Positions 53,317-55,790 of a stretch of DNA of 64,000 bases are shown here, in pieces (position 1 is the stretch's first letter; every line of letters begins with the position of its first letter). The position numbers were made by a program, and so were the translations under genes. Origin of the DNA: Frigoribacterium sp. PhB116 (GTDB lineage: Bacteria; Actinomycetota; Actinomycetes; Actinomycetales; Microbacteriaceae); NCBI RefSeq assembly GCF_004364285.1, contig NZ_SOBE01000001.1:1178001-1242000 (forward strand), in the 5' to 3' direction. The notes beneath the pieces are model-generated. The model was not told the DNA's origin. It did not search any database and was given only the letters and a program-made list of their open reading frames with translations.

Positions 53317-54861
53317 ATGGGCATCAGTCGTCGAGCGTTCCTGACGGGGTCGGCCTCCGGGGCCGCCGTGCTGCTGCTCGCGGCCTGCACGACCGACGGC
53401 CCCTCCCCCGCGCCGACGGCCCCGAGCAGCACGCCGACGCCCACCCCGACCCCGACCGCGACGCCCTCGGCCGGGCCGACGCCGTCCGCGTTCCGCCGCA
53501 GCGGCTGGGCCGACGACCCGTTCGCGCGGGGCTCGGGCAGCTACCTGACCACGTCGTCGTCCGACGACGACCGCGCGGCGCTCCGCCAGCCGGTCGACGA
53601 CCGGGTCTTCTTCGCTGGCGAGGCCACCGCGAGCACGGCGCCGGGCACCCTGGGCGGGGCCCGCGCCAGCGGCTTCGACGTCGCGGACGCCGTCGCCGGG
53701 GTCGCCGAGCAGGGCGAGCGCATCGCCGTCGTCGGCGCCGGGATGTCCGGCGCCACCGCAGCCAGGAGCCTCGCGGCGCGCGGCTACGACGTCGTCGTCG
53801 TCGAGGCCCGCGACCGAGTGGGCGGCCGGGTCACCTCGTACACCGGGGGCGACTGGCCGTTCCCCGTCCAGCTGGGCGCCGCCTCCCTCGACGGCGAGGC
53901 GGCCGCCGCCCTCGTCGCCGCGCTCGCCCTCGGCCGGGTCGACACCGTGCGCCTCGGCGGGGTGCTCGAGGTGCGGTCCTCCGGCGGGCAGGCGACCTCG
54001 CTCGTCGGCGTCCCCGAGCGTTCCCTCGCGTCGGCCGCCGGGTGGGCCGACGACCAGGCGGCCTCCGTGACGGTCGCGCAGGCCGTCGCCGGCGCCGGCG
54101 CGGGGCCCGAGCAGCAGTCGCTCGAGCCCGACGCCACGGGCGTGTCCGACGCCGCCCGCCTCCAGTTCGTGCTCGACGAGGCGCTGCCCGTCCGCTGGGG
54201 CGCCGGGCCGGACGACCTCGCCGAGCGACAGGACCCGGGCGACGTCGGCGAGCTCGCCGCCGCCGACCTCGGCAGCCTGTTCCCGCTCGGCGAGCCGTTC
54301 GTCACCGGCGACCTGTCCGCGTTCGTCGAGGCGCAGCTCGACGGCCTCGACGTGCTGCGGGGCAGCACGGTGGCCCGGATCCAGTACGGCGACCGCGGCG
54401 TCGGCCTCCGCCTCGCCACCGGCGAGAGCCTGTCGGTCGACCGCGTCGTGGTCACCCTGCCGCTGGGCGTCCTGAAGGAGGGGACGACCGAGTTCGCCCC
54501 GGAGCTGCCGACCACGCACACGGCGGCGATCGAGACGCTCGGCGTTGCCCAGCAGGAGGTGCTCTGGCTGCGCTTCGACGAGCGCGCCTGGAGCACGGAG
54601 GCGACGGTGCTGACCACGGTCGACGGTTCGTCGGGCTTCCGCGTCTTCGTCAACCTGATGCCCTCGACGGGCGAGCCGGTGCTCGTCGCGCTGGCGGGCG
54701 GGGACGACGCGGTCGCGAGCCTCGAGCTCGGCGACGACGAGGCCGTCGCCGACGCGCTGGCCGGCCTCGCGCCCTACTTCGACCTCGTGCCGGAAGCAGC
54801 ACCCGAGTCCACGTCCGACCCCGACGCGGGCCCGGACTCGTCGGAGGCGCCGGCCGGCTGA
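53317..54861 (+). CDS. Tat-exported flavin amine oxidase, apparently circularly permuted
   Basis: 514 residues. A Tat signal (SRRAFLTG) with lipobox LAAC, Cys24, then a Ser/Thr/Pro linker to about 57. Residues 59-130 (RRSGWADDPFARGSGSYLTT, RQPVDDRVFFAGEATAS, PGTLGGARASGF) are what normally forms the C-terminal FAD-binding motif of flavin amine oxidases. The Rossmann start RIAVVGAGMSGATAARSLAA and EARDRVGGR follows at 135-171, and the rest runs on to LVALAGGDDAVASLELGDDE, the part that normally precedes the first segment. The protein ends there, without a second copy. It oxidises an unknown amine outside the cell membrane. It starts nine bases after GATGAT, probably leaderless. Confidence 0.85.
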   Translation: MGISRRAFLTGSASGAAVLLLAACTTDGPSPAPTAPSSTPTPTPTPTATPSAGPTPSAFRRSGWADDPFARGSGSYLTTSSSDDDRAALRQPVDDRVFFAGEATASTAPGTLGGARASGFDVADAVAGVAEQGERIAVVGAGMSGATAARSLAARGYDVVVVEARDRVGGRVTSYTGGDWPFPVQLGAASLDGEAAAALVAALALGRVDTVRLGGVLEVRSSGGQATSLVGVPERSLASAAGWADDQAASVTVAQAVAGAGAGPEQQSLEPDATGVSDAARLQFVLDEALPVRWGAGPDDLAERQDPGDVGELAAADLGSLFPLGEPFVTGDLSAFVEAQLDGLDVLRGSTVARIQYGDRGVGLRLATGESLSVDRVVVTLPLGVLKEGTTEFAPELPTTHTAAIETLGVAQQEVLWLRFDERAWSTEATVLTTVDGSSGFRVFVNLMPSTGEPVLVALAGGDDAVASLELGDDEAVADALAGLAPYFDLVPEAAPESTSDPDAGPDSSEAPAG

Positions 54862-55607
54862 TCCCCGCCGGAGCCGCACACCTCCGCGCCGCCGACCTCT
54901 GCGCCACCGACCTGGGCGCCGCCGCCCTCAGCCCCCACGACCTCGGCGCGCTGGCCGCGCCGCAGCAGCACGCCCGGCCGCGGCCCGGGCCGCAGGTGAC
55001 TGAGGGCGATCAGGGCCGACATCACCCCCGCGATGACGGCCAGGGCGATCGCGTTGTACATCACGAACTCGTCCGGCCAGCGCACCTGCGCGGGGTCGAG
55101 GAAGAAGTACGGGTACCAGCCGACGTCCGCGCCGCGCACGATCGTCGCGATGCCCCAGACGACCGGGAACACGAGCACGACCGACAGCATCGCCCAGCTG
55201 ACGCGGGTGCGCCCGGGGGCGAGCACCCAGTCGACGACGAGGAACCCCGGGATCCAGAAGTGCAGCACCTGGGTCGACCAGGGAACGCCGATCGCGAAGT
55301 CGTTGCTCAGCGACTCGATCAGGATGATGCCGTAGACGATGCCCGACACGACGACGTAGGTCGTCACCAGGGCGTGCACCGCGGCGAAGGCGCGGCCCTC
55401 GGGTCGGCCCCGGAGCGAGAGCGCCCCCGACACGGCGAGGACGAGCACGTTCGCCATGTTGCTCTGCTGCGTGAAGTACGCGAAGTAGTTGACCGTCGAG
55501 AAGGTCGAGAAGCCGAGCGTGTAGAAGAAGTACGACACGAGGGCGGCCGTGCCCACGGCGGCGACGACGAGGCGCAGCACGCCGACGACTGTTCGCACCC
55601 TGTTCAC
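54774..55607 (-). CDS. Pr6Pr family membrane protein
   Basis: 277 residues. Six membrane helices with the family motifs NYFAYFTQQSNMANVLVLA, QVLHFWIPGFLVVDWVLAPG and YPYFFLDP. Function unknown; related to FAR-17a/AIG1-like proteins. The last 70 residues are a Gly/Ala/Val/Ser tail with GGAEV-type repeats. Its 3' end overlaps the convergent oxidase gene by 88 bases. The GTG at 55607 with AGGAG is chosen because the -10 TAGGGT (55665-55670, minus strand) lies after the longer upstream start. Confidence 0.85.
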   Translation of the reverse strand: MNRVRTVVGVLRLVVAAVGTAALVSYFFYTLGFSTFSTVNYFAYFTQQSNMANVLVLAVSGALSLRGRPEGRAFAAVHALVTTYVVVSGIVYGIILIESLSNDFAIGVPWSTQVLHFWIPGFLVVDWVLAPGRTRVSWAMLSVVLVFPVVWGIATIVRGADVGWYPYFFLDPAQVRWPDEFVMYNAIALAVIAGVMSALIALSHLRPGPRPGVLLRRGQRAEVVGAEGGGAQVGGAEVGGAEVCGSGGDQPAGASDESGPASGSDVDSGAASGTRSK

Positions 55608-55669
55608 TCGCTCCTGGTAGCGCGGGGACGCCTCGGGTAGGCCTCCCGTGCAGACGACGACCCTACTAG

Positions 55670-55707
55670 GACGGGCCGGTCTCCCCCTGCGGGGAGACCG
55701 GCCCGTC
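55670..55707. terminator. Strong hairpin between aldo/keto reductase and Pr6Pr genes
   Basis: GACGGGCCGGTCTCCCC (55670-55686) and GGGGAGACCGGCCCGTC (55691-55707) form a perfect 17-base stem. It terminates the minus-strand reductase and abuts the -10 box of the next minus-strand gene, overlapping its -35 region. Confidence 0.85.
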
Positions 55708-55790
55708 GGCACAGCCGGGTCCGGCCCGCGGGCCGGACGGGTCAGATCAGTCGCCGGACCTGACCAGACCGCAACTCATCTCAGCTCAGC

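Follow-up and report, generated by a model that had tools for sequence, protein, structure and literature searches.

A circularly permuted flavin amine oxidase-like lipoprotein in Frigoribacterium and other Actinomycetota

Flavin amine oxidases canonically run from a Rossmann unit through a substrate domain to a C-terminal segment that binds flavin adenine dinucleotide (FAD). We analyzed a 64,000-nucleotide stretch of the Frigoribacterium sp. PhB116 genome (contig NZ_SOBE01000001.1, positions 1,178,001 to 1,242,000; hereafter the window), in which the open reading frame (ORF) 53317-54861 encodes a relative of these enzymes with the C-terminal segment at its N-terminus. Does this unusual order reflect a damaged gene, exchange of segments between subunits, or a circular permutation, as the initial annotation had proposed? 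We conclude that the gene product is very probably a naturally occurring circular permutant from the LSD1/polyamine oxidase (PAO) branch of the flavin amine oxidases. As a permutation of the PAO/LSD1 fold, the arrangement is real and conserved, and a literature search found no report of a permuted amine oxidase among open PMC papers, although one may exist elsewhere.

Order of the parts in the window protein

The chain begins with a twin-arginine translocation (Tat)/lipobox signal and continues through a linker, the displaced segment (here called CAP), the Rossmann unit and the substrate part to its end at residue 514. Residues 1-24 (MGISRRAFLTGSASGAAVLLLAAC) contain a twin arginine and a lipobox. 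The ORF, the segment at residues 59-130 and the GAGMSG motif at 140-145 are as first described. CAP contains the motif series W64-ADDPFARGSGSY...FFAGEAT...GT..GA..SG; the residues of the series are present, but the sequence reads GSGSYL rather than the SYSY initially given.

The protein matches PF01593 in three stretches (158 bits against a gathering cut-off of 19.8; E 6e-46), among them residues 334-497 aligned to profile positions 204-371. When the window protein alone was compared with the chains of the PDB using phmmer, three stretches were found on LSD1 (2hko) in rotated order: residues 135-194 on chain positions 109-166 (independent E-value, i-E, 7.9e-8), 337-485 on 404-561 (i-E 2.6e-8) and 51-127 on 567-655 (i-E 3.4e-4). 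Because the last of these pairs the start of the query with the end of the chain, the N-terminal piece is the counterpart of the LSD1 C-terminus. A profile (A3) built from 38 permuted proteins gave the same picture on LSD2, where profile positions 83-426 align to chain 336-696 (i-E 1e-64) and 2-78 to chain 699-775 (i-E 1.5e-16). Jointly, the two pieces span the LSD2 oxidase domain end to end in swapped order; they abut in LSD2, therefore nothing is missing from the permuted protein. All parts are thus present once, in a rotated and conserved order, as expected of a circular permutant. LSD1 and LSD2 (KDM1A/B; PF01593) are the best match in sequence and fold, from which the window protein differs in its N-terminal CAP, its export signal, a valine at the position of the flavin-facing lysine, and the lack of a SWIRM match in the Pfam scan. 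Annotation by domain profiles alone hides rearrangements of this kind.

The new join between CAP and the Rossmann unit is nearly constant in length. From the SG of CAP to the GxGxxG motif we counted 21 residues in 50 of the 55 measurable ORFs (of 57 permuted ORFs, described below); the spacing is 19 in three ORFs, 24 in one and 9 in one, the last of which may be a pattern mismatch. This bears on the possibility of a domain-swapped oligomer, in which each CAP would fill the FAD site of an adjacent subunit and not its own. Sequence cannot separate same-chain from swapped packing; however, a near-constant join suits a direct helix-strand link within one chain, and the C-terminal segment of canonical enzymes packs within its own chain. 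We therefore regard a domain swap as improbable.

On this reading, the strand-helix of CAP, which closes the FAD site, is translated first, after the signal for export and lipid anchoring; the CAP helix would lead into the first Rossmann strand by way of a short join of fixed length, and the chain stops at the point where CAP would otherwise begin. The folded body is expected to resemble a normal PAO/LSD1 enzyme whose chain is opened in the loop that connects the substrate domain to CAP. The membrane tether would then be attached on the CAP side and no longer on the Rossmann side, so that the enzyme would be seated differently at the outer surface of the membrane. The suggestion that the FAD-binding strand lies next to the anchor is loose, since about 35 low-complexity residues separate the segment from the lipobox cysteine. 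Features of the locus are collected in Table 1.

Table 1. Features of the permuted amine oxidase locus (window coordinates)
Feature	Position	Strand	Basis
Circularly permuted flavin amine oxidase-like lipoprotein, 514 aa	53317..54861	+	ATG ORF; PF01593; relatives with the same order
Tat signal with lipobox, residues 1-24 (SRRAFL...LAAC24)	53317..53388	+	sequence reading
Pro/Thr/Ser-rich linker, residues 25-58	53389..53490	+	sequence; variable in alignment A1
CAP, residues 59-130; FAD-binding segment located at the C-terminus of canonical enzymes	53491..53706	+	LSD1/LSD2 matches
New join, CAP helix to first Rossmann strand, residues 131-134	53707..53718	+	SG-to-GxGxxG spacing
Rossmann unit (N-terminal in canonical enzymes) with GAGMSG, E163 and GGR171, residues 135-200	53719..53916	+	Pfam, phmmer
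Later part, residues 334-489, stopping where CAP would canonically start	54316..54783	+	PF01593, LSD2 alignment
Val415, position of the flavin-facing lysine (LSD1 K661/maize PAO K300)	54559..54561	+	rotated alignment
Membrane protein of the Pr6Pr family; convergent, with an 88 bp overlap of the 3' ends	54774..55712	-	NF038065, E 1.4e-35

Distribution, maintenance and origin of the permuted order

The taxonomic reach of the order was assessed within Actinomycetota. A search of genome contigs with the single protein, which detects close relatives only, returned three permuted loci and one unrelated Rhizobium match. The three are from Frigoribacterium sp. ACAM 257 (93% identity), F. faeni (82%) and Cryobacterium cheniae (locus L009; 46% over the full length, same order). 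The permuted order is present in all 16 genomes of the genus, that of the window included, and for this reason exceeds chance. Among 120 genomes of the family Microbacteriaceae, 49 match at E up to 1e-10; 36 have the permuted order, and the remaining 13 have canonical ORFs only. One genome (G027) holds the permuted gene in pieces on two contigs, one of them with CAP followed by the Rossmann unit. In the wider samples, which overlap and in which many matches are canonical, any match was found in 17 of 149 genomes of the order, 31 of 148 of the class, 21 of 149 of the phylum and 40 of 246 in a further class sample. Permuted ORFs outside the family come from nine other family codes, ten in all with Microbacteriaceae: L064 (f16), L068 and L069 (f15), L093 (f43), L094 (f35; cut by a contig edge), L111 (f76), L112 (f68), L142 (f48), L186 (f37), and L188 and L190 (f51). 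The search for homologues of the same order thus bore out the proposed permutation within the genus, the family and beyond. A tblastn search of plasmids with two queries matched 3 and 7 records, none of the matches covering CAP.

The loci yielded 57 distinct permuted and 33 canonical ORFs, leaving aside those identical to an earlier one over the first 80 residues from the Rossmann start and those in which CAP or the Rossmann unit was not detected at 0.001 (e.g. L100, L102-L105). The RRx[FLVI] plus lipobox pattern occurs in 52 of the 57 permuted ORFs. Each of the 90 ORFs has one CAP; a second CAP, as in a duplication intermediate, was found neither among them nor in later locus sets. Homologues with a normal second copy, which would have marked this gene as truncated, were thus absent from the ORFs examined, and the protein indeed ends where the C-terminal segment would start. 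Extra upstream CAP matches at two loci (L088, L097) proved to be a separate canonical amine oxidase gene upstream and not a second copy.

These results bear directly on the idea of a truncated or decaying canonical gene whose N-terminal match is a remnant of something else. The protein is indeed shorter at its end than canonical enzymes and lacks the catalytic lysine. However, 57 ORFs share the order with one CAP each, the order occurs in ten family codes, the FAD residues are invariant, and ratios of nonsynonymous to synonymous substitution rates (dN/dS; NG86 method) are 0.12-0.27 in eight of 11 pairs, so that decay is scarcely credible. Conservation of the order across many related bacteria suggests that a classic enzyme fold has been re-cut in nature. 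Such a conserved permutation would demonstrate, for one of the best-studied flavoenzyme folds, that either chain order can form the FAD site, and would supply ready-made permutants for studying the effects of break point, tether and folding order on catalysis.

Some observations weigh against a maintained permutant with the PAO/LSD1 fold. Three of the 11 pairs, more distant ones, gave dN/dS of 0.56-0.63; our guess is that dS is saturated in them, and this guess is weakened by another pair with similar dS (0.565) and dN/dS of 0.225. The model of the window protein itself, built on a four-sequence alignment, has a predicted local distance difference test score (pLDDT) of 34. That of the 46%-identical Cryobacterium relative has a mean pLDDT of 69, with 114 of 432 residues below 50, and the alignment behind it already put canonical CAP fragments at the N-terminus. 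Among the 50 Foldseek matches listed, query-normalized template modeling scores (TMq) are 0.52-0.62, and root-mean-square deviations reach 25 for some LSD1 chains. On the positive side of the structure comparison, residues 77-431 of the Cryobacterium model align to the fold of maize PAO (1b37, 3kpf), and the model ends where the canonical C-terminal segment begins; the comparison covers the later part of the chain, residues 1-76 lying outside the aligned part. The likeness to maize PAO and spermine oxidase consists in this fold, the Rossmann unit and the FAD-contact residues, whereas the order differs. A Foldseek comparison of the model with viral models returned amine-oxidase-like and other, mostly weaker, matches.

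We examined whether the permutation arose once using trees of rotated sequences. On the first tree (56 permuted and 33 canonical rows) the order label requires three changes, of which starred branches force two; a single permuted clade is not rejected by the approximately unbiased (AU) test (p 0.099). The second tree was picked for spread: it draws 20 permuted ORFs from 61, and its 31 canonical rows comprise 20 from the earlier 33 and 11 from 23 newly scanned; here the label requires four changes, and starred branches force only one. A bolder scenario, which we consider rather unlikely, is that the same seam was opened at least twice within Actinomycetota, the trees allowing as many as four permuted lineages, and that the resulting enzymes are tethered through CAP; most lines of Microbacteriaceae would then have lost the oxygen-activating lysine, and their enzyme would have become an extracytoplasmic dehydrogenase that forms a redox pair with the convergent Pr6Pr membrane protein.

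Canonical-order Tat lipoprotein amine oxidases also exist, in Actinomycetota (L088, L067) and on an IMG/VR contig (L163). They resemble the permutants in their export signal and LSD1-like domain and differ in that the signal joins the Rossmann end, CAP is C-terminal and the lysine is kept. Canonical LSD1-like amine oxidases are encoded on six IMG/VR contigs (L163, L164, L165, L171, L172, L181), of which L163 has the Tat lipoprotein-like signal. At L173:1-1914, a single ORF joins an amine oxidase cut inside the C-terminal segment to what appears by eye to be a DnaC-like ATPase, either a chimera or a fusion. In another genome (L133, G355), a canonical lipoprotein-like amine oxidase is seemingly split across two frames.

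The flavin site and its lysine position

Residue counts were made on the rotated alignment of 56 permuted rows (the 57 ORFs less the fragment L094) and 33 canonical rows; since many permuted rows are close relatives, the counts do not represent independent events. The GxGxxG glycines, the glutamate and the GGR arginine are invariant in all 56 permuted and all 33 canonical rows, and in the window protein correspond to GAGMSG, E163 and GGR171. The glutamate of the CAP GE motif is kept in 55 of 56 permuted and 29 of 33 canonical rows. Because the FAD-contact residues are invariant, FAD binding is probably kept. Judged from its sequence, the protein is probably an exported, lipid-anchored FAD enzyme, which would oxidize an extracytoplasmic amine or a related compound as its probable substrate.

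The flavin-facing lysine behaves differently, being K in 32 of 33 canonical rows versus 13 of 56 permuted rows, the others having V (18), T (11), R (6), S (4), Q (2), L (1) or A (1). On the tree of all 89 rows, the distinction between K and non-K requires eight changes. The window protein lacks the lysine near flavin N5 typical of PAO and LSD1, having Val415 instead. The second tree includes ten permuted rows from outside the family, of which nine keep K and one (L142) has R; therefore, the permutation need not destroy the flavin lysine. Because it has been replaced repeatedly, nature offers a set of variants (K, R, T, V, S) with which to study oxidase versus dehydrogenase function in flavoenzymes.

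As cited in PMC3184146, K661A abolished demethylation by LSD1 and K300M slowed flavin reduction in maize PAO 1400-fold. Two other papers describe a lysine close to N5 as critical for the fast reaction with O2 (PMC12272882) and Lys300 as strictly conserved among the PAOs analyzed there (PMC7576179), a residue absent from the window protein. These effects, and the V, T, S, Q, L or A found in 37 of 56 rows, speak against a fully working O2-dependent amine oxidase with the lysine replaced by another residue; K or R in 19 of 56 rows and in all ten out-of-family rows speaks for it, and we consider it possible, if doubtful. Less likely still is a structural or sensory lipoprotein that binds FAD and is not catalytic. 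It would explain why the FAD site is retained while the lysine and the tryptophan of the GASW motif (25 of 33 canonical and 13 of 56 permuted rows) are often gone; against it, sequence conservation extends to the substrate-side later part, and eight of 11 pairs point to purifying selection on the gene as a whole. The Frigoribacterium permutant is perhaps a dehydrogenase. We tentatively suggest, as one possibility among these, that the genus enzyme, with valine at this position, would react poorly with O2 and hand electrons elsewhere, perhaps with the participation of Pr6Pr.

The convergent Pr6Pr gene

A convergent gene for a Pr6Pr membrane protein lies downstream of the permuted gene, within about 1 kb, in all 21 family loci. 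Of the 36 family genomes that carry the permuted gene, 33 have the convergent pair within 1 kb; measured by match ends, the spacing ranges from an overlap of 90 bp to a gap of 109 bp in 31 of these pairs and is 904-959 bp in the other two. Of the other three genomes, one has the genes on different contigs and two are without a strong Pr6Pr copy. Pr6Pr is present in 103 of the 120 family genomes, and the best 35 matches all come from genomes with the permuted gene. Against a wider partnership, none of five loci examined outside the family (a check covering loci other than L140, L142, L186, L188 and L190) was found to have Pr6Pr next to the permuted gene; thus, permutants do not need Pr6Pr in general. 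The other window neighbours are mostly not kept: in 20 family loci outside the genus we found the aldo/keto reductase in two, the NnrE-like gene in one, a weak major facilitator superfamily (MFS) match in one and the alpha/beta hydrolase in none.

The Pr6Pr protein has no Pfam match up to E 0.001, with weak ones only up to 10, and the word Pr6Pr was not found in the open PMC papers searched. The linked proteins (54774-55712 on the minus strand of the window; L009, L143-L162) carry near-invariant YxTxQS, LH and WYPYFFLD motifs, and their Thr/His pattern is reminiscent of the AIG1/ADTRP threonine hydrolases, although Pfam gave no match. In three genomes (G040, G116, G090), Pr6Pr copies flank the permuted gene on both sides.
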